Shown here one piece after another: positions 32,622 through 43,122 of a DNA stretch of 55,199 bases. Each line of letters starts with the position of its first letter. Position 1 is the stretch's first letter. The stretch is from a bacterium (GTDB lineage: Bacteria > Bacteroidota > Ignavibacteria > Kapaibacteriales > UBA7675): contig JAUIKM010000039.1 in assembly GCA_030430495.1 (NCBI GenBank), forward strand, positions 1 to 55,199, in the 5' to 3' direction. Made by a program: the position numbers and the translations under genes. The notes under the pieces were generated by a model. It searched no databases. It was not told the origin of the DNA and saw only the letters and a program-made list of their open reading frames with translations.

Positions 32622-35600
32622 CTAACGCAGAACCAGTTTCTCGCTGACAATGCGCCCGTCCGGCGTCAAAGCCTTCACCAGGTAAACGCCGGGCGTGTAT
32701 GTGCCGATGTCGAGCGGCAGAGCGATGTTCGGGCTGTTTAACAGCGGCGAACGATACAGCTCGCGCCCCATCAGGTCCGACAGAATAAGCTGCACGGCCC
32801 GTCCGTCAGGGTTGTTTAACTCGATCATCACTTCACCGTCGGTCGGGTTGGGCGTGAGCATCAGACGTCCGTCAAAGGTCTGGTCGATGTCGGCATGCGG
32901 CTGGTCCAGATCTGCGTCCGCCTGTCCCGGGCGCAGAAAAGTCTGCGCAAGACAGGTGTAGACGTTTTTGTCCGCCGTGCTGCCGTCGCCCAGCTGACCG
33001 TAAATGTTGTAGCCCGAACAGCAATCCGTGCCGCCGCCGCGATGAATAATACCGTGGAAAGTGCCGGCGCCAATATCGACGGCGTCGTTAACTCCCGTAG
33101 CCGTCACCGGAGTTAACTGCTGCGTGGTATTCATGCCGTCGCCCAACTGGCCAACCGAATTAAATCCCCAGCCGTGGACTTCGCCGTTGTCGCTCAGAGC
33201 GGTGCTGTGGTAACCGCCGGCCGTAATTTTGACCACGGGCGCCAGACCGGGCACCACGCCGGGCGTGTTGCGGTCCACAAGCGTGCCGTCGCCCAGCTGC
33301 CCCAGACCGTTGTATCCCCAGGTTAACACCTGGCCGGTACTTAACAGCGCCATGCTGTGATACTGGCCGGCCTCGACGGAAATCGCTTTTTCAACTTCGC
33401 CGATGGAACCTACGCGCACCGGCGTTGTGATGCTGGCGGTCGTTGTGCCGTTGCCGATCTGGCCGTAGAAATTGTATCCCCAGGCCCAGACCGTACCGTC
33501 GTTTTTCAGCGCCAGCGTGTGATACAGACCGACGGCTACGTCGACGACGTCGGTTATACCGGACACAAGAATGGGCACATCACTGTCTGTTGTCGTGCCG
33601 TTGCCGAGCTGACCGTAGAAGTTGTAACCCCAGGTGTGCACGCGGCCGTCGCTGGTGACCGCCGCACTGTGGCCGACGCCGGCGGAGACGTCGACGACAT
33701 TGCTCAGCGCCGTCACCTGTACCGGTGAATTCTGCTGCAGCGTGTTGCCGATGCCCAGCTGGCCCTGGGAATTGTTGCCCCAGGTCCAGAGCTCGCCGTT
33801 TGTTTTAATCGCAAAGTTGTATTCATAGCCGGCGTCGATCGACTGCACGGAGCTTAAACCGGGCACAAGCGTCGGCGTCAACTTGTCGACGGTCGTGCCG
33901 TCGCCCAACTGACCGAACTTGTTGCGGCCCCAGGTGTAGACCGTACCGGCGGAAACGCGCAGGCCCATTGAATGCAGATAGCCGCCGTCGACGAAAAGAT
34001 TGTCCGTCATCGACGCAAAGGCCTCCTGACAACTGTACTGCGTGGTGTTAAGCGTTGTGCCGTTGCCGATCTGCCCCGAGTAGTTGTAACCGGAGGCGCA
34101 GACCGAGCCGTCCTGTTTAACAAGCAGCGAATGCCAGCCGTGGCCGCCCAGGTCGGCAACGCCGCTGATGTTAATCGCCGCGACGGGTGTGTTGCGGTCG
34201 CTTGTTGTGCCGTCGCCAAGCTGACCGCTGTCGTTGCGCCCAAAGGCTTCCACCGTCGCGTTGTCCAGCAGCACGGTGCTGTGGAAACGCCCGGCGGAAA
34301 TCGTTTGAATGTCGCTGAGCCCGGCAACGGCGACCGGCGCGGTGCGATCGGTGTTGCTGCCGTCGCCAAGCTGGCCGTAGAGGTTCCAGCCCCAGGTGCG
34401 AACCGTGCCGTCGGCCAGCAAAGCCATGCTGTGTTTATCGCCGCAGGCGATGCGACGCACGCTGGACAGATTCGGAATCTGCACGGGCACGTTGCTGCCG
34501 GAGAGCAGCGGAATGCCCAGCTGGCCGTTGGAATTTGCGCCCCAGGCCCAGACCGTGCCGTCGGCTTTCAAGGCCAGGGTATGCGACTCGCCGGCGGCGA
34601 GCATGACGACGTCGCTGATGTTAACCTGAACGGGCATGTCGCGCTGCGTCGTGGTTCCGTCGCCCAGCTGGCCGTCGCCGTTGCGGCCCCAGGCCCAGAC
34701 CGTACCGTCGCTTTCGAGCGCAAAAGCGTGGAAACGCCCGGCGGCGATCGTTGTGATGTCGGACAGCGCGCTTATTTCCTCAAGCTCATTGCGGTCCCAG
34801 ACGGTGCCGGTGCCGAGCTGGCCGTAGTAGCCATAACCACAGGACCAGACGGTGCCGTCGTTCAACAGAACATATGATGTGTACGCGCCGCCCGCAAGCT
34901 CCACCGCGCCGCTGACGTTTAACATGCGAACGGGCCGCGAACGCGCGCCGTAGGCCGCATTGCCAAGCTGACCGTAAAAATTGTGTCCCCAGGCCCAGAC
35001 CGACCCGTCGGACGGCAGAATTGCCATGCTGTGATAATTGCCCGCCTCGACGATCGGGTTGTCGTTGCTGATGTCAAAATAGCGCGAGAGCGAGTCGTTC
35101 CAGGGATTGGTATCCTGATCGTCCAGCACGGTTGTGAAGATTGAAAACTCGTTGTAGTTCGCGCCGCTCGCAATCGGGAAACCCGTCGCTTTGGGGAATA
35201 CCACTGTTTTACTTTCACCCGGCGCGAGGTCCGACAATGTTAAGGTGCGCTCGTAGACGTCGTGGTTGAGCACGCGGTGACGAATTCGCACACGCAGCGG
35301 CACGTCGCTTAACATCTGCGTGCCGTTGTTGCGCACGCTCACCGTCGGACGGAAAGGCGAATGCAGCGCCGTGTTCGGCGCGGGGATCGTGTATTCGACG
35401 GGCTGCGCGTCGTACTTGCCGTTGATGCTGAAAGTACTCGCGCTCTGATCGACCACGGCGGAGTTCTCCCAGTTCATTACGCGCACGCGCGCCTCATCGG
35501 TCGTATACGTCGGTACAACCCAGGCGTATGTGCCCGTTCCGGCGTCGGTTTTGGATATGACGTCGTACCAGGTTTCACCGTCATCCGGCGTCCACTCGAT

Positions 35601-37460
35601 GCGCACAAAACTGATACTGCCGCTGACGGCCCAGGTGATGTTGATCGTTGTGTCGGCGCAGAGTGTGTCGCCGCCATTGGGGTAGTTAAGCGTCACCGCG
35701 CCGGCAAGCGTCGGGATAATTCTGAACGGACGCGAGTAAATGTTGTTAAGGTCGTTTTCATCGCCGGCCAGCTCTATTGTGGCCACGCCGTCATACGTGC
35801 CGGGCGTTGCGAGGGACAGAGCGGAAAACACGACGTCCGTTTCGGCGCCGGCATTCAAGGTGTTTATGAGCTGCGTGCTGGTGGCGACAACCGTATTGGT
35901 CGTGCTCTCGCGGATGTCGTAGCGCACGGTAATATTGCTCTGGTTGTTGCTGCCGGCATTGCGGAAACGGGCCGTGGGAGTCACCGACGCAAGGCTGCCG
36001 TAAATGCCGCCGTTGGCCGGAAAACTCATGGCCCTTACTTCCAGATCGTCGGCATAGGCGTCTGCCACGGGATGTACGCAGGCGCGGCCTTCGGTGTAAT
36101 TGCGCATATAGGTTGAAACGCGCGGGTGGAAGTGATTGCGGCGCGGGTTACAGTAACTCATCACCGTACCAAGGCGCATGTTGGGGGCTGTTAAACAGGA
36201 CGTGCCGCCGCCGCCCAGCGAACAGGAGTCGACCGGCGGATTCCAGAAACAGTTCTGCGTGTGGTTGGCCGCAAAGTTGTGGCCCGTTTCGTGCGACACC
36301 AGATAAATGTCGTAGAGATAACCCGTCGGCGGATAGGTCGACAGATAGTTAACGCCGCTGACGGCGTACTGCACCGTATTGCAGAGGCCGCCGATGTACG
36401 CGCGGCCGCCGCCGAAAGCGCCGCTGAACAAATGCACCAGGGCGCGTTCCACGTACCCCATGTTGGCGTTCCAGTAACTGCGCACCTCGCTCAGACCGGC
36501 GGACGTATTTGTACCGGGGAATGGATCCTCGGTCGTCCAGACGCGAATGTAGGGAACGGTTAACAGGACGTTCAGATCGCGGTCGTACACGGCCGAACAG
36601 GCGCCCATCACGGACAGCGAGTAGTTAACCGTGCGCGAAATATTCTGCTGATGATCGTTGTAGTATTCGTTGTCGCATTCGATGGCGACGGGGACGTCGA
36701 GCGGCGTTTCGTCGATCTGGATTTTGTCCGAGCCGCGTTTGTGCGTCGCTCCGCCGTATTCGGTTAACAACTGTTCAAACCGACCTTCGTTCATTGGCTC
36801 GTCGTTGGTCGTGCAGAAATGGTCGTCGTGGTCGTGATCGTCAAGATCGAGGTATTTTTCCGAACAGACCGCCATCACCGATTGATGACCGGGCGTGTGG
36901 TCCAGCGGCCCGATCACGTAGCGCTCGTGGATGCCTTTGGCTTCGTCGTTAAACTCGACGTATCCCAGGGTGTATTCGGGGAACACGGACAGGTACACAA
37001 AAGAACCCGGATGCCCCTCCACCGCGCCGGCCATAAAAAGGGCGCGGTCGTGTTTAATCGGCACATCGCCGTCGGCGGTTCCGGCCACCACGCGGGCGTC
37101 GGCGCTCAGAAGGTTAAACGTCCGCAGCTGAAGATTTACGGCATAACCGGGCGACAGCTCAAACTTTTCGAGGTAGACATCGACATTCCGCCGCGAGTCG
37201 AACTCGTCATACTCGGCGGCGCTCATGGTAAAAAAAGCCGCGTAGAGTGGCACGGCCGCGGTTGCGGCAGCCGGACGTTCCAGCTGCCGGAACAGGCCCT
37301 CGCCGTACTGCGTGGCGCTCCCCGCATGTGAAATCGGGGAATGCGAGTGGATCGCCTTTGATTTGGCGGCATCGTCGGCATGCGGCCGATACTGCGCCAG
37401 AAGGGCGTGTGAATTTAACAGAACGGCACAAACAATCAGGAGGTGGGTTAAACGGGACAT
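32622..37460 (-). CDS. Secreted M12-type metalloprotease with two RCC1-repeat propellers and T9SS sorting domain
   Basis: 1612 residues from ATG 37460, chosen for GGGAG upstream and the signal peptide after it (LTHLLIVCAVLLNSHALLA). The frame runs on for 385 codons antisense to DinB without a real start. A propeptide-like region comes first. The reprolysin/astacin-like zinc site HETGHNFAANH lies near residue 390 and the Met-turn GTVMSYC near 430. Residues ~480-800 hold Ig-like strands. Fourteen RCC1 repeats (WGxNxxGQLGDGT pattern) follow at ~800-1510, then a T9SS domain (LTPNPTDGEVMIEL, PGVYLVKALTPDG). Repeats 7 and 14 both carry the CxSGYN variant with a second Cys, marking two seven-bladed propellers. 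Confidence 0.9.
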   Translation of the reverse strand: MSRLTHLLIVCAVLLNSHALLAQYRPHADDAAKSKAIHSHSPISHAGSATQYGEGLFRQLERPAAATAAVPLYAAFFTMSAAEYDEFDSRRNVDVYLEKFELSPGYAVNLQLRTFNLLSADARVVAGTADGDVPIKHDRALFMAGAVEGHPGSFVYLSVFPEYTLGYVEFNDEAKGIHERYVIGPLDHTPGHQSVMAVCSEKYLDLDDHDHDDHFCTTNDEPMNEGRFEQLLTEYGGATHKRGSDKIQIDETPLDVPVAIECDNEYYNDHQQNISRTVNYSLSVMGACSAVYDRDLNVLLTVPYIRVWTTEDPFPGTNTSAGLSEVRSYWNANMGYVERALVHLFSGAFGGGRAYIGGLCNTVQYAVSGVNYLSTYPPTGYLYDIYLVSHETGHNFAANHTQNCFWNPPVDSCSLGGGGTSCLTAPNMRLGTVMSYCNPRRNHFHPRVSTYMRNYTEGRACVHPVADAYADDLEVRAMSFPANGGIYGSLASVTPTARFRNAGSNNQSNITVRYDIRESTTNTVVATSTQLINTLNAGAETDVVFSALSLATPGTYDGVATIELAGDENDLNNIYSRPFRIIPTLAGAVTLNYPNGGDTLCADTTINITWAVSGSISFVRIEWTPDDGETWYDVISKTDAGTGTYAWVVPTYTTDEARVRVMNWENSAVVDQSASTFSINGKYDAQPVEYTIPAPNTALHSPFRPTVSVRNNGTQMLSDVPLRVRIRHRVLNHDVYERTLTLSDLAPGESKTVVFPKATGFPIASGANYNEFSIFTTVLDDQDTNPWNDSLSRYFDISNDNPIVEAGNYHSMAILPSDGSVWAWGHNFYGQLGNAAYGARSRPVRMLNVSGAVELAGGAYTSYVLLNDGTVWSCGYGYYGQLGTGTVWDRNELEEISALSDITTIAAGRFHAFALESDGTVWAWGRNGDGQLGDGTTTQRDMPVQVNISDVVMLAAGESHTLALKADGTVWAWGANSNGQLGIPLLSGSNVPVQIPNLSSVRRIACGDKHSMALLADGTVRTWGWNLYGQLGDGSNTDRTAPVAVAGLSDIQTISAGRFHSTVLLDNATVEAFGRNDSGQLGDGTTSDRNTPVAAINISGVADLGGHGWHSLLVKQDGSVCASGYNYSGQIGNGTTLNTTQYSCQEAFASMTDNLFVDGGYLHSMGLRVSAGTVYTWGRNKFGQLGDGTTVDKLTPTLVPGLSSVQSIDAGYEYNFAIKTNGELWTWGNNSQGQLGIGNTLQQNSPVQVTALSNVVDVSAGVGHSAAVTSDGRVHTWGYNFYGQLGNGTTTDSDVPILVSGITDVVDVAVGLYHTLALKNDGTVWAWGYNFYGQIGNGTTTASITTPVRVGSIGEVEKAISVEAGQYHSMALLSTGQVLTWGYNGLGQLGDGTLVDRNTPGVVPGLAPVVKITAGGYHSTALSDNGEVHGWGFNSVGQLGDGMNTTQQLTPVTATGVNDAVDIGAGTFHGIIHRGGGTDCCSGYNIYGQLGDGSTADKNVYTCLAQTFLRPGQADADLDQPHADIDQTFDGRLMLTPNPTDGEVMIELNNPDGRAVQLILSDLMGRELYRSPLLNSPNIALPLDIGTYTPGVYLVKALTPDGRIVSEKLVLR

Positions 37461-38189
37461 AACTCTCCCTGGGGACTCGCCTGGTGCGGTCCGAATGGTG
37501 AAATCGCCTGTTGAAAGGCGACGTACAAATTGTGTTGATTGACGGCAGCGATCCGTTTTAACCGGTCGGAGAATTGCAGCCCGAGGATTAACGCGGACAG
37601 TGATGTATACCGGACAAACGGAAACAAGATAGAATTGCAACGGCGCGGCGTTGAGTTCAACGGCGCTGTTTCTTGAAATCATTGGTCGTGAACAGATTGT
37701 CCCGACGCGGCGATTTCGGGGCCGGAAAGAATCTACAATCAAATTGTGCACAAAAACAAGAACTATCTTTTGGCACGGCAACAAATGATCGACTCTGTTG
37801 CCGAGCTTTCCCCACCAGCAGATTAACCGACGCGTCACTATCTCGCCGGGACGGGATTGCCGCTTGTTTAAATAATTCATGGTGCGCGCTCCCGGCATGA
37901 CCTCGACAGCCGACTTTTGTTTGTCCCGCAGTTCCAGGCTGGATGGCCGCGAACCGGCTGAACGGCGTGCAGCCGGAGCCTGCAGGACTAACAGGAAGGG
38001 ATTGAAAAAGCAAGCGGGAACCGCGAAGCTGGTCAGGGCATTCGGCTGTAATGCAAAAAAGCGCGGTCGGAAGATTAGTTTGATTGATCGGGTTTTATCA
38101 AATTTGCACGACGGGTTGGTTCGAATGCCGCAAAGCGTCCGACCGTACCACCAAACAGTCCCTACAATTCTTTTCCGGAGCTTGTCAGA
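37461..38189. other. Divergent intergenic region (protease / DinB)
   Basis: About 730 bp without a supported gene. GGTGAAATCGCCTG at ~37498 repeats the word seen at 13619. Overlapping frames on both strands look like GC-rich noise. Confidence 0.5.
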
Positions 38190-38693
38190 ATGGCTATAAG
38201 CGAAGCCCTGCTGCCTGAGTACGACATGGAAATGGCGAGCACGCGCAAGATTCTCGAGCGCATTGACGATGCAAAATTCAGCTGGAAACCGCACGAAAAA
38301 TCCTACTCGATGGGCGACCTTGCGACGCACGTCGCCACGCTGCCCTTGTGGGGCGTCATGACGGTGCATGGCGACCACTACGACGTTACGGACCCGAATA
38401 ATCCGCCGCCGGCCAAAGCTGCGAACAAAGCTGAAGTGCTGGCGATGTTTGACAAAAGTGCGGCGGATGCGCGCGAGGCGATCGCCGGCGCCGACGACGC
38501 GGTCATGATGCAACCGTGGAGCCTGAAAGCGGACGGCGCGGTAAAATTCACGATGCCAAAAGCGGCCGTGCTGCGCTCGTTTGTGATGAATCACATGATT
38601 CACCACCGCGCGCAACTGGGAATGTACCTGCGCATGAACGACATCGCGCTGCCCCAGATATACGGCCCGACCGCCGACGAAAGTTCAATGTAG
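38190..38693 (+). CDS. DinB-family (four-helix, metal-binding) protein
   Basis: 167 residues with the DinB/YfiT arrangement: MEMASTRKILERI in helix 1, FSWKPHEKSYSMGDLATHVA with the first metal histidine, and NHMIHHRAQLGMYLR with the other two. GGAG is ~10 bases before the ATG. The family includes mycothiol- and bacillithiol-dependent transferases and many of unknown role, usually stress-related. It ends at a strong shared terminator. Confidence 0.9.
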   Translation: MAISEALLPEYDMEMASTRKILERIDDAKFSWKPHEKSYSMGDLATHVATLPLWGVMTVHGDHYDVTDPNNPPPAKAANKAEVLAMFDKSAADAREAIAGADDAVMMQPWSLKADGAVKFTMPKAAVLRSFVMNHMIHHRAQLGMYLRMNDIALPQIYGPTADESSM

Positions 38694-38747: not shown

Positions 38748-38783
38748 AACAAAACCCCGCCGGAACACCTGCGGGGTTTTGTT
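38748..38783. terminator. Strong bidirectional terminator between DinB and paralogue 1
   Basis: Perfect 13-bp stem AACAAAACCCCGC / GCGGGGTTTTGTT with a 10-base loop. T-runs appear on both strands, so it can stop DinB (plus) and paralogue 1 (minus). Confidence 0.9.
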
Positions 38784-38819: not shown

Positions 38820-39389
38820 TTATTGCGAGGCTTTCATCGTCGCCGTGCTGCCGGCCGTGAACGTGATGCGGCTGTCCGTAGCGTCGTTCGTCGTAAACGT
38901 AACGTCTTTGGCCAGTTCGTATTCAACGGCGTCTTCCGACGGCCATGAGCGGATATTGTCAACCGACTTCAGAACCAGCGGATCTTTGGTCGTGTATTTT
39001 TTACCGTTCATTTCAAGGCGAACGAACGATTTCACAACGGCGGAAGCCGGGTAGAAAGGCACACCGTCGGCGCTGTTGCTTCTCAGCGTGATGGTGCTTT
39101 CCTGATCTTCGTCATTGGTGGCCGTACCCTTGTTTTTCTTCTCGCGGTCTTCCACATTCAGTTCTTTGCACTTGATCGTGACGACTTTCTCGGTGTCCGA
39201 GACGTCTTTCGGATCGCTGCCGTCCATGAAGTTAACACCGCCCATGGTCACGGTAACGCCGTCGATAACAACTTCGCACAGCGTCGAGCCTTCGCAGTCG
39301 TAGTCGCAAAGGTTCTGGGCATTAACATTGGCCGTAAAGGCAAAAACGAGGGCAGCAGCGGAAAGACCGCTTAAAACATTGCGTAACAT
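38820..39389 (-). CDS. Secreted protein of unknown function, paralogue 1 of 3
   Basis: 189 residues: signal peptide MLRNVLSGLSAAALVFAF, cleavage near VNA-QNL, then a cysteine cluster CDYDCEGSTLC. The family core shows VxMGGVNFMDGSDP, IKCKEL, GVPFYPASAVVKSFVRLE, KSVDNIRSWPSEDAVEYELA and a closing AGSTATMK. I recognise no known family; the strand pattern suggests a beta-rich secreted domain. It is most similar to the gene at 40053. A long leader with its own promoter (39744-39772) precedes it. AGGA is ~8 bases before the ATG. Function unknown. Confidence 0.85.
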   Translation of the reverse strand: MLRNVLSGLSAAALVFAFTANVNAQNLCDYDCEGSTLCEVVIDGVTVTMGGVNFMDGSDPKDVSDTEKVVTIKCKELNVEDREKKNKGTATNDEDQESTITLRSNSADGVPFYPASAVVKSFVRLEMNGKKYTTKDPLVLKSVDNIRSWPSEDAVEYELAKDVTFTTNDATDSRITFTAGSTATMKASQ

Positions 39390-39737
39390 AGTAAGATTCC
39401 TGTGTAATTGAAGTGGATTAAAAAACCAAATGGTACACTAAATGTATGCTGTGCAAGGATGTGCGCATCATCCCCGCCGCACGCGTGGGCTGAAAAATTT
39501 TCTGTTGTAGTTTCAGGCCGTGTGTGGAATTGTCACTCCAGACTGCGTCTCCGTATTAATACAGCGACTCAAAACACGGTGTTGTTAATTCCCGGCTCCG
39601 GGCAGAGGACGGGATGACTTCTCGCTTCCGGGCGTTCGAATCTCGTTAACAGGCCGGCGGCAGTATTCCTGTTGTTCAGAACGCGTCGGAATGAAGCATG
39701 CGTTAAGTGGCTAAAGAACGGGGCAGTTTCACAAACG
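39390..39737 (-). promoter_or_regulatory. Long untranslated leader of paralogue 1 with conserved hairpin
   Basis: About 348 nt between the predicted start of transcription and the ATG. It carries a hairpin at 39457-39473 (minus-strand stem GGATG/CATCC, loop ATGCGCA) and, 12 bases upstream of it in the transcript, CAGCCCAC preceded by CAGAAAATTT. The same elements occur at matching places in the leader of paralogue 2, as does TTAACGAGATT farther upstream. Probably a regulatory RNA leader; the ligand or partner is unknown. Confidence 0.6.
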
Positions 39738-39743
39738 CGCCGC

Positions 39744-39772
39744 AATATAGCGCACAGGCATGCACGGTGCAA
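39744..39772 (-). promoter_or_regulatory. Promoter of paralogue 1 (TTGCAC-17-TATATT)
   Basis: On the minus strand, TTGCAC (39767-39772), 17 bases, then TATATT (39744-39749) followed by GCG. Confidence 0.75.
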
Positions 39773-39966
39773 GACTTTGTTTAAATTCTTTGCACAATTT
39801 TTCAATCTGAAGTACTTGCCGCTCGGCTGTTGACGCACACCGCGCTCGCGTGTGTGACGCACGGCGGCAGGCCGGCGGCACATTGACTGTTGTACTTCGG
39901 GCTGACGGCCGTTACAGAGCGCCTGGACGGCGCGAGTGATGCAACACACGCCGGACAGGCAGAACA

Positions 39967-40008
39967 AGCGCACCCCGGCGTGTATGCCCGCCGGGGTGCG
40001 CTTTTTTT
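39967..40008. terminator. Terminator downstream of paralogue 2
   Basis: 14-bp stem AGCGCACCCCGGCG / CGCCGGGGTGCGCT, with TTTTTTT on the plus side and TTGTTCT on the minus side. It separates paralogue 2 from the promoter of paralogue 1. Confidence 0.8.
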
Positions 40009-40052
40009 CATGCCTTTTTAAACACAAAGCTGTGCTTTTGCAGGCAGAAGTT

Positions 40053-40619
40053 TTATTGACGGGCTTTCATCGTCGCCGTGCTGCCGGCCTGGAAGGTCAC
40101 TTTGCTCGTGCCGTTCTCGTTGACGAGCGTGACATCTTCGACCAATTCGTATTCGACGGCTTCTTCCGACGGCCAGGAGCGAATTCTGTCGACCGACTTC
40201 AGGACCAGCGGCTCGCGGCTGAAGTATTTACGGCCATTGAGTTCGAGTTTGATGTGCGATTTAACAACGGCGGAAGCCGGGTAGAAAGGTACACCGGAGC
40301 TGCTGTTGCTCGTAATCGTGATATTGGACTCCTGGTTTTCGTCGTTCGTGGCCGTGCCTTTGTTCTGGTTGTTTTTGTCGCGCAGCTTCAACTCTTTGCA
40401 CTTGATTTTAACTTCTTTTTCGTTCGGCGCGGTATCAACCGGGTCCGTGCCGTCCATGAAGTTAACGCCGCCCATGGTCACGGGTACACCGTCGATGATG
40501 ACTTCACACAGAGTCGAGCCTTCACAATCGTAGTCGCACAGCGTTTGAGCGTTGACGCTGTAGGTAAATGCAAGCATCAGCGCCAGAGCGCCGAGGCCGG
40601 AAATAACGTTTCGCAACAT
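40053..40619 (-). CDS. Secreted protein of unknown function, paralogue 2 of 3
   Basis: 188 residues, about two-thirds identical to paralogue 1 by eye. Signal peptide MLRNVISGLGALALMLAF, cleavage near VNA-QTL, then CDYDCEGSTLC, TMGGVNFMDGTDP, GVPFYPASAVVKSHIKLEL, RIRSWPSEEAVEYEL and AGSTATMK. The middle segment KLRDKNNQNKGTATNDENQ is polar and the most variable. It has a promoter at 40982-41010, a ~355-nt leader and a terminator of its own, so each copy is a separate transcription unit rather than part of an operon. Function unknown. Confidence 0.85.
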   Translation of the reverse strand: MLRNVISGLGALALMLAFTYSVNAQTLCDYDCEGSTLCEVIIDGVPVTMGGVNFMDGTDPVDTAPNEKEVKIKCKELKLRDKNNQNKGTATNDENQESNITITSNSSSGVPFYPASAVVKSHIKLELNGRKYFSREPLVLKSVDRIRSWPSEEAVEYELVEDVTLVNENGTSKVTFQAGSTATMKARQ

Positions 40620-40975
40620 AGTAGACTTCCTGTAGGTAGAGTTAACAAATCGAATAATGGCAATAAAAAAACCTGTGGATTCAAAGACGTGCGCATCGCC
40701 TCGGCATCCATTGGTGGGCTGGTAAATTGTCTGAAACGCCGAATATCGGTACTGTCCGGAGCGCTTTACTGGCTAAGGTACGCGCTTGACAAGTGTACAG
40801 GCCTGGTATTTCCGGGACAAGGTATTCGGCGGAAATTATTGTTTTCAATCTCGTTAATTCGACTCCCCTGCTCACTTCGTGGCAAGTACTGATCCCGCGT
40901 GGCAGCGTCGGGACAGCCGGCTGAACACACGTGGAATAAACACATGTATTACAGGAGAGACGTTGGCAGTTAACG
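40620..40975 (-). promoter_or_regulatory. Long untranslated leader of paralogue 2 with conserved hairpin
   Basis: About 356 nt. A hairpin at 40685-40701 (minus-strand stem AGGCG/CGTCT, the same loop ATGCGCA) lies 66 bases upstream of the ATG, against 68 in paralogue 1. CAGCCCAC follows the same spacing, with CAGACAATTT before it. Stem differences from leader 1 keep the pairing. Confidence 0.6.
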
Positions 40976-40981
40976 CGGCGC

Positions 40982-41010
40982 AATATATAGCATCACCTCA
41001 ACGTGTGCAA
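40982..41010 (-). promoter_or_regulatory. Promoter of paralogue 2 (TTGCAC-17-TATATT)
   Basis: TTGCAC (41005-41010) and TATATT (40982-40987) with a 17-base spacer on the minus strand. Confidence 0.75.
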
Positions 41011-41146
41011 GTGCTTTCTGAGAATTCGCAGTAATTTTCATATTCAAAGTAATTCCGACGCGCGCCGTACAAAGCGGCCGGAATCTTCGATGGCGTACCA
41101 CTCGCCGAACGCACCCCGACTGAATCCCGAGGCCGCACGGTGCTAC

Positions 41147-41187
41147 AAAGCAGCCGCGGCGCAATTGGCGCGCCGCGGCTGCTCTTT
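41147..41187 (-). terminator. Probable terminator of paralogue 3
   Basis: 12-bp stem GCAGCCGCGGCG / CGCCGCGGCTGC (41150-41182), followed by TTTGT on the minus strand. A second inverted repeat, GGTATTGCCCC / GGGGCAATACC (41228-41250), lies between it and the stop codon. Confidence 0.6.
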
Positions 41188-41259
41188 ATACACACAGATT
41201 CGCCGAACGGTCCATCCGGATTTCAGCGGTATTGCCCCCGGGGCAATACCCCGGAAACA

Positions 41260-41847
41260 TCAATCGGATTTTTTCATCGTCACCGTACTGCCGGCCTGAA
41301 TCGTCAGTTCGCTGGACTCGCCCTGGAACGTCACGTCTTCAGCTACTTCGTACTCAACAAAATCCTCACTCGGCCAGGACTGAACATCTCCCATCGAATT
41401 CAGCACGATCGGATCAGCGCTCGTATAGGCTTTTCCGTTCAATTCAATATCCACATAGGAGTATACCGTGGCCGATGCCGGGTAAAACGGCACACCGCCG
41501 GCTTGACGACTCTGCAGTGCCACGCGCGAGTCCGCGCCCGCGGTATTCGTGGCATTGCCCTGATATGTGTTGTTCGAATTGCTGAAGTTGAGGTCCTTAC
41601 AAGCGATCGGTACTTCTTTGTTTTCGTTGTCGATATCCTCGATCGGGTCGCCTTCCATAAGGTTAACACCCGCCACGACAACAGGCATGCCGTCGACGAT
41701 AAGTGTGCAGAGAGCGCTGCCCGAGCAATTAATGTCGCAAGGAGGAGGCGGAGGAGGAGGCGTACCTGCAGTAACAGTTGAGTTGTTGGCGCTGAACGCA
41801 AAGATACATGCGGCAAGGCCCAAAGCGGAAATAACAATGCGTAACAT
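41260..41847 (-). CDS. Secreted protein of unknown function, paralogue 3 of 3 (divergent)
   Basis: 195 residues, the most divergent of the trio. The signal peptide (MLRIVISALGLAACIFAF) is followed by a proline run (GTPPPPPPP) that replaces the short linker of the other two, then CDINCSGSALC, VAGVNLMEGDP, IACKDL, GVPFYPASATVYSYVDIEL, WPSEDFVEYEVAEDVTF and AGSTVTMK. The conserved cysteines and the FYPASA and WPSE motifs show common origin. It has its own promoter (42286-42314) and a ~430-nt leader. Function unknown. Confidence 0.85.
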   Translation of the reverse strand: MLRIVISALGLAACIFAFSANNSTVTAGTPPPPPPPCDINCSGSALCTLIVDGMPVVVAGVNLMEGDPIEDIDNENKEVPIACKDLNFSNSNNTYQGNATNTAGADSRVALQSRQAGGVPFYPASATVYSYVDIELNGKAYTSADPIVLNSMGDVQSWPSEDFVEYEVAEDVTFQGESSELTIQAGSTVTMKKSD

Positions 41848-42279
41848 AGTTTACATTCCTGTAAATGTGGTTTATACAAAAGAATAAATATGAATGTATA
41901 TCAGACGGGACGCGGCACAGAGCCCGTCACCGTCGTTGTGAGCAGACGGTTTCGGTCGGCATGCGGCGGCATGTCGGATCGTTTGTTTCAGGCATCAAAC
42001 AAAGCAGCGGGAAGCCGGTAAAACAGCGGCTTCATATTGGGCATTGAGCAGTTCGGCAAACTCAATACAGTCAACAGTCAGGTCGGCATGCTTTTTTCCC
42101 GCCGCGGTTAAAGAGCGAGGCGGACTGAAGGCGCTTCCGGTTAAACACACTACAACGCAGAGGAAATGGCAGCGTCGGCCGAGAGAACGCTGTTTAGCGG
42201 GAATGCACGTGAGAGTAACGACAGTGGAGTTCGCTTTCGAGGGCCGGTAACGACAGTGGAACACCTTCTTTTAACGAAC
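41848..42279 (-). promoter_or_regulatory. Long untranslated leader of paralogue 3
   Basis: About 430 nt. It shares the final CAGGAATGTAAACTATG context with the other leaders. A hairpin GACGGG/CCCGTC (41904-41928) sits ~57 bases before the ATG but lacks the ATGCGCA loop. A 13-base unit CCACTGTCGTTAC (minus strand) is repeated at 42215-42227 and 42247-42259, 32 bp apart. Confidence 0.5.
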
Positions 42280-42285
42280 GGCGAA

Positions 42286-42314
42286 AATATAGCGCGACAA
42301 TTTAGTCGAAGCAA
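42286..42314 (-). promoter_or_regulatory. Promoter of paralogue 3 (TTGCTT-17-TATATT)
   Basis: TTGCTT (42309-42314), 17 bases, TATATT (42286-42291) on the minus strand. Confidence 0.7.
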
Positions 42315-42399: not shown

Positions 42400-42984
42400 T
42401 CAGGACTCTGCATCGCGGCCGCTGTCCGTCGGCCGGCCGGCAGGCGGATCAAAGTATGCAGAGCCGTGCAGCTTCTCGCAGTCCGCTTTGTCCGTCCAGT
42501 ATATCAGCCTGGTTTTCCCCGGGCGCTTGAAGCCGCTGCGCACGTTGCGGTGAATTCTGGCGGCGACGGTGCGCGAGGCGAGGTTGTCGGGAGCGACGAT
42601 GGAAATGACGCGCTCCTGCCGCAATTGTTCAAAGGCGTGGTTGCGGCAGGCTGCGGCCGCTTCGCTTGCATAGCCCCGGCGTCTGTGTTGAGCCGCGACG
42701 TGATATCCGATTTCGAGCCGACGGCCCTCGTCGATGTCTTGCCACACCAGGCCGCAGTCGCCGATCAGCTCATCGTTGGACTTCAGGCACAGAGCCCAGA
42801 GGCTGACGCCGTCGCGTTTGTACACGTCGCGCCAGCGGATGACCCAGCCGGCCACCATGCGCGGGTCCGTCATACGTGGATAAAACCGCCGGGCCAGCTC
42901 GTCGTTGAACACCGTTTGCATGGTGTCGACGTCGTCGTGCTCAAACGGCCGCATGTACAACCGCTCCGTCTCAGGTATGTGCAT
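42400..42984 (-). CDS. GNAT acetyltransferase, RimJ/RimL type
   Basis: About 194 residues. Start set at MHIPETERLYMRPF (42984), the usual place relative to the TERLxxRPF motif; ATG 42999 is an alternative and neither has a strong ribosome site. Seen: ELIGDCGLVW, RRLEIGYHVAAQHRRRGYAS with the acetyl-CoA loop QHRRRGYA, and VAPDNLASRTVAARI. The family acetylates protein N-termini, small amines or antibiotics. The C-terminal ~20 residues are polar and unlike the family. Substrate unknown. Confidence 0.88.
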   Translation of the reverse strand: MHIPETERLYMRPFEHDDVDTMQTVFNDELARRFYPRMTDPRMVAGWVIRWRDVYKRDGVSLWALCLKSNDELIGDCGLVWQDIDEGRRLEIGYHVAAQHRRRGYASEAAAACRNHAFEQLRQERVISIVAPDNLASRTVAARIHRNVRSGFKRPGKTRLIYWTDKADCEKLHGSAYFDPPAGRPTDSGRDAES

Positions 42985-43122
42985 AGTTTTTCGCTGCATG
43001 CGGTTGTGTCGTCGCAGCGCCTTCGCGCGGTCGACCAATCCACAGTTAAAAGACGCAGGCAGTTAAACATGTCGGCGGTACGACGACCGCACAGCCACTG
43101 CGCCTGCTGTTAAACACCCCGC

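Follow-up and report, generated by a model that had tools for sequence, protein, structure and literature searches.

Three tandem genes for exported proteins with a predicted DynF-like barrel fold in a Kapaibacteriales bacterium

The tandem genes and their products

The window, i.e. the whole stretch of 55,199 nucleotides analysed here, carries on its minus strand three intact paralogous genes, which are arranged head to tail in tandem, all start with ATG and are flanked by unrelated genes, namely a DinB-family gene on one side and a GNAT acetyltransferase gene on the other. An earlier note on this DNA had described three tandem secreted paralogues of 188-195 residues with a set of common motifs, and the open reading frames of 189, 188 and 195 amino acids indeed carry all of these, i.e. 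CDxxC/CDINC with a further conserved cysteine, GVPFYPASA, SWPSE and AGSTxTMK. Four conserved cysteines are present in each protein, and the signal peptides claimed for the trio can be read from the sequence in all three. The features of the locus are as follows:

up to 38693, plus strand: DinB-family gene (end of the gene)
38748-38783, minus strand: terminator hairpin after gene 1, with a U-rich tail, convergent with the DinB gene; fold of the hairpin-containing stretch -25 kcal/mol
38820-39389, minus strand: gene 1, secreted protein with predicted barrel, 189 aa; signal peptide, then QNLCDYDCEGSTLC
39390-39737, minus strand: inferred 5' leader of gene 1, 348 nt, without conserved structure or ORF
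39744-39772, minus strand: predicted promoter of gene 1, TTGCAC-17-TATATT
39963-40006, minus strand: strong hairpin after gene 2, fold -44 kcal/mol; best T-run on the plus strand
40053-40619, minus strand: gene 2, secreted protein with predicted barrel, 188 aa; mature form modelled by AlphaFold2
40620-40975, minus strand: inferred 5' leader of gene 2, 356 nt
40982-41010, minus strand: predicted promoter of gene 2, TTGCAC-17-TATATT
41144-41188, minus strand: strong hairpin after gene 3, fold -41 kcal/mol
41221-41257: second hairpin of gene 3, directly after the stop codon
41260-41847, minus strand: gene 3, secreted protein with predicted barrel, 195 aa; proline run after the signal peptide
41848-42279, minus strand: inferred 5' leader of gene 3, 432 nt
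42286-42314, minus strand: predicted promoter of gene 3, TTGCTT-17-TATATT
42400-43038: GNAT acetyltransferase gene, upstream of the trio

The products of genes 1 and 2 are 71% identical and those of genes 1 and 3 51%. With dN/dS values of 0.28-0.37 among these copies, amino-acid sites have changed much less than synonymous sites, i.e. these are real genes under purifying selection. Their products are acidic proteins (pI 4.1-4.9) of about 18 kDa, with GRAVY values of -0.27 to -0.56. An important question is where such proteins reside after export. No match to the T9SS C-terminal sorting domain (Por_Secre_tail) was obtained with Pfam in the three proteins; this domain is found in products of neighbouring genes. 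Inspection by eye revealed no lipobox with a cysteine at the cleavage site, where the sequences read VNAQxLCDYDC and TAGTPPPPPPPC, and no transmembrane segment is apparent from sequence beyond the three signal peptides. Having neither a type IX sorting tail nor a lipobox nor outer-membrane features, the proteins most likely occur in free form in the periplasm or the medium.

No lipid or metabolite pathway was recognised among the neighbouring genes. The reading frame at 32622-38615 on the minus strand encodes a very long T9SS-type protein, in which a reprolysin-like metallopeptidase domain is combined with CARDB/Ig domains and many RCC1 repeats. This frame overlaps the DinB gene at its N-terminal end, where it is probably over-extended.

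Promoters, long leaders and downstream hairpins

Each of the three genes is preceded by its own TTGC-N19-TATATT site, with the TATATT hexamer located 354, 362 and 438 nt upstream of the ATG of genes 1, 2 and 3, respectively, which agrees with the earlier claim of separate promoters and leaders of 350-430 nt. The 55-kb window contains exactly three such sites, as compared with 0.05 expected, and 100 shuffles of the window never produced three, but since the pattern was picked after seeing the sites in the window, it is the sites elsewhere that provide an independent test. Exact sites occur at distances of 402 and 410 nt upstream of two orthologues that lie in tandem in a metagenome-assembled genome (MAG) from another genus, Candidatus Kapaibacterium sp. 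IP29b_bin.46 (JANQRB010000172.1). In the genome under study, a distant paralogue on contig 13 has an exact site 478 nt upstream, and one member of a pair of paralogues on contig 17 has a one-base variant 408 nt upstream. The exact motif is absent from the 700 bases upstream of the paralogues on contigs 28 and 63 and of the single family genes on contigs 31 and 71, so the long leader is not a family-wide feature.

In the entire genome there are 22 TTGC-N19-TATATT sites versus three for the pattern read backwards, and most of the others lie 29-300 nt before unrelated genes. A special regulon behind this motif was rejected, because the motif precedes many unrelated genes and is about equally enriched in two relatives. 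Thus, genes of this lineage probably use TTGC-N19-TATATT as a general promoter form, and it is the long leader that is unusual. Family members have longer leaders than the remaining motif-bearing genes do (Mann-Whitney P 0.0013), in a post hoc comparison for which the start codons of the latter were called mechanically. A regulatory RNA within the leaders was considered and discarded: a search of Rfam for riboswitches and known leader RNAs returned nothing at the gathering score, folding is not clearly better than that of shuffled sequence (z -0.65, -1.58 and -0.81 for genes 1, 2 and 3), and the leaders of the three window genes have little sequence in common and no shared small ORF. The differential expression that the earlier note had suggested for the trio is thus a conjecture. 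On contig 70 (L096), a TTGC-N19-TATATT site lies 402 nt before a ribonuclease G/E-like gene (named from sequence). This arrangement is reminiscent of rne in E. coli with its long autoregulated leader.

At the other end of the genes, a strong GC-rich hairpin is found within 37-72 nt of each stop codon of the trio. On the coding strand, only gene 1 is followed by a good U-tract, those of genes 2 and 3 being weak, and the gene-1 hairpin, being convergent with the DinB gene, probably serves both strands. The earlier statement that every gene has its own terminator is therefore well supported by the sequence for gene 1, whereas for genes 2 and 3 it is plausible. Strong hairpins are also located downstream of both orthologues in the Kapaibacterium MAG. 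An operon would be characterized by short gaps and by the absence of internal promoters and terminators; the intergenic gaps are 663 and 640 nt long, and each includes a promoter motif and a hairpin. Taken together, these signals support separate predicted transcription units for the trio, in a layout that is kept in another genus.

Size, distribution and duplication of the family

Using a profile of the three window proteins iterated over the genome, we found 27 domains of this family here; the Kapaibacterium MAG has 11, and 121 further genomes of the order gave no match. A narrower profile run against 395 genomes of the phylum, a draw that did not include the Kapaibacterium MAG, recovered this genome only, and a plasmid search yielded no relatives of the window protein. 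Thus, the trio does not constitute the 'small set' of factors it had been taken for but belongs to a lineage-specific expansion. Apart from the trio, contig 28 carries a tandem array of three single-domain genes and contig 63 one of eight two-domain genes; contigs 31, 13 and 71 have one family gene each, and contig 17 has two divergent ones.

In the array on contig 63 (L009, 3890-14294), eight genes follow one another, and the secreted product of each contains the predicted barrel domain twice. Two of the eight genes are 92% identical, which suggests a recent duplication within the array. Upstream of it (395-2149), a reading frame of 584 residues contains part of a barrel domain, matches TIG weakly and ends in a membrane segment at the C-terminus; it is possibly an anchored member of the family. 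The Kapaibacterium MAG has a three-gene version of this two-domain array (L048, 1882-5195). The tandem pair on contig 17 (L080, 5342-6980) is divergent and features a cysteine- and tryptophan-rich insert, e.g. HRVRICRWYCGWCCIPTYYTIC.

The closest counterpart of the trio is the tandem pair in the Kapaibacterium MAG, with about 50-62% identity to the window proteins. Motifs, promoter position and downstream hairpins are the same, but there are two copies rather than three, with other neighbouring genes and a duplication of their own. In a tree of 37 family domains, the window trio groups with this pair (100/99), and within this group genes 1 and 2 pair with each other (98/93), as do the two Kapaibacterium copies (97/94), which indicates that tandem copies arose separately in the two genera. 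Yet all five copies keep the promoter-leader layout, and duplication of the whole unit is thus a simpler explanation of the separate promoters than the 'investment in separate control' that the earlier note had read into them.

Searches of Pfam, NCBIfam, PHROGs and, by sequence, the PDB revealed no known relatives of the window proteins; hits to GpP-like proteins and MiiA were weak and far below the cut-offs. A viral origin was also dismissed, as the single match on a viral contig (L038) is due to an unrelated short ORF that contains CDIDCEGSTNC by chance, and a fold search of BFVD returned nothing at E<=0.001. As a sequence family, these proteins are undescribed in the libraries searched and narrowly distributed. 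To this extent the novelty that had been proposed for the trio is borne out, but its predicted fold has one known relative.

The predicted barrel and its possible role

Two AlphaFold2 models, built on three and five sequences, respectively, and of medium confidence, are both all-beta (pLDDT 66 and pTM 0.64 for the first, pLDDT 74 and pTM 0.74 for the second), and in structure searches both rank DynF of Micromonospora chersina (PDB 6UBL) first. The first model matches DynF with a Foldseek probability of 1.00, E 6.8e-4 and Z 12.3, followed by PagL with Z 11.1, and the second with a probability of 1.00, E 2.1e-4 and Z 14.5 over 156 residues, where the next match has Z 9.4. The window proteins are therefore predicted to form a DynF-type eight-stranded beta-barrel, and profile search and structure prediction, which had been suggested earlier as a check, place the family, among the genomes searched, in this genome and the Kapaibacterium MAG only and point to DynF for the fold.

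DynF has been reported as an eight-stranded barrel with a new fold, which encloses palmitic acid and has a putative function (PMC8725005). This palmitate may be a passenger from E. coli. DynF and the models are of similar length and alike in their loops inserted in strands, but DynF lacks a signal peptide, is encoded in an enediyne gene cluster and matches the Pfam family DUF6073 (PF19550). The window proteins, by contrast, combine a signal peptide with four conserved cysteines and show no significant sequence relation to DynF. They remain unmatched by PF19550 at E<=1 (cut-off 25 bits), and the best match of this profile in the genome, with 12.4 bits, falls on contig 17 but outside the paralogues known from that contig. 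With hhalign, the comparison of the window family with DUF6073 (three sequences) is not significant, as column-shuffled profiles score as high, and a local match with DynF in a collinear place, the stretch EP(I/L)xL...(V/I)RSxP, is not significant either (P 0.026). The relation to DynF/DUF6073 is thus structural and predicted, and we do not file the window proteins as DUF6073 members. The earlier view that they have no known family holds for their sequence, but not for their predicted fold. There is precedent for the export of such a domain, since a DUF6073 protein encoded on a Paracoccus aminophilus plasmid (L045, 2851-3720) has an apparent signal peptide, which suggests that exported DynF-like barrels are more widespread. 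A much weaker likeness, with Z about 6-7 and without sequence similarity, exists to YceI-like proteins and bacterial lipocalins (BcnB, YceI, the polyisoprenoid-binding TT1927b), i.e. small exported beta-barrels holding apolar ligands. A separate YceI-like protein, named from its sequence, is encoded on contig 48.

How could these findings fit together? A complete monocistronic unit, consisting of promoter, long leader, gene and hairpin terminator, would have been duplicated in tandem to yield three genes, each giving rise to a soluble, acidic and Sec-exported protein with a DynF-like eight-stranded barrel. Outside of the cytoplasm, the four conserved cysteines would probably be disulphide-bonded, and, by analogy to DynF, the barrel would most likely enclose a hydrophobic ligand, i.e. 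a fatty acid, another lipid or a small secreted metabolite. If so, the paralogues may operate as extracytoplasmic carriers or sequesterers, perhaps differing in specificity. Having a barrel fold in common with DynF does not demonstrate ligand binding, and we regard this joint reading as evenly balanced between right and wrong.

Its main rival, which we consider rather unlikely, is that the proteins are beta-domains with a structural or adhesive role at the cell surface or in the extracellular matrix, with the barrel being a stable module that is copied and paired but holds no ligand. Surface modules typically show such large tandem expansions of secreted proteins with one or two domains, this genome exports many T9SS surface proteins, and the frame next to the contig-63 array combines a partial domain and a weak TIG match with a C-terminal membrane segment. 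However, no anchor is present in the members in the window, be it a T9SS tail, a lipobox or a transmembrane segment after the signal, and the similarity of the models to DynF favours a hollow barrel. A lineage-specific array of secreted proteins, the copies of which differ, might also bring to mind intercellular factors acting in immunity, toxin sequestration or competition, with paralogues fitted to different targets, and lipocalin-like antibiotic sequesterers of the YceI family (BcnB, 7bwl) are among the weaker fold matches. Such a function seems improbable, as dN/dS values of 0.13-0.37 give no sign of diversifying selection, a Z near 6-7 for BcnB-type matches is common to many barrels and partner toxin genes were not recognised nearby. 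Least probable are small outer-membrane barrels like OmpX or PagL: these two and OmpW do appear among the fold matches, but the strands are mostly only 4-8 residues long, the proteins are acidic, with their negative GRAVY values and no C-terminal aromatic residue, and DynF scores far higher in the better model.

Returning to the ligand-holding barrel, a more far-reaching reading, which is tentative and which we would not expect to hold in full, is that exported, ligand-binding barrels of the DynF type form an undescribed family restricted to this lineage, the copies of which have diverged to accommodate different extracellular lipids or metabolites and of which at least the clade in the window is controlled via long leader RNAs kept across genera. 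A large family of exported proteins that has the predicted fold of DynF but belongs to a different phylum would show this barrel to be a general, evolvable container and not a peculiarity of the synthesis of enediynes, and would offer many natural variants for ligand-binding tests. Furthermore, long leaders conserved across a gene clade in a poorly studied group of bacteria raise the question of how the synthesis of exported proteins is controlled in these organisms.
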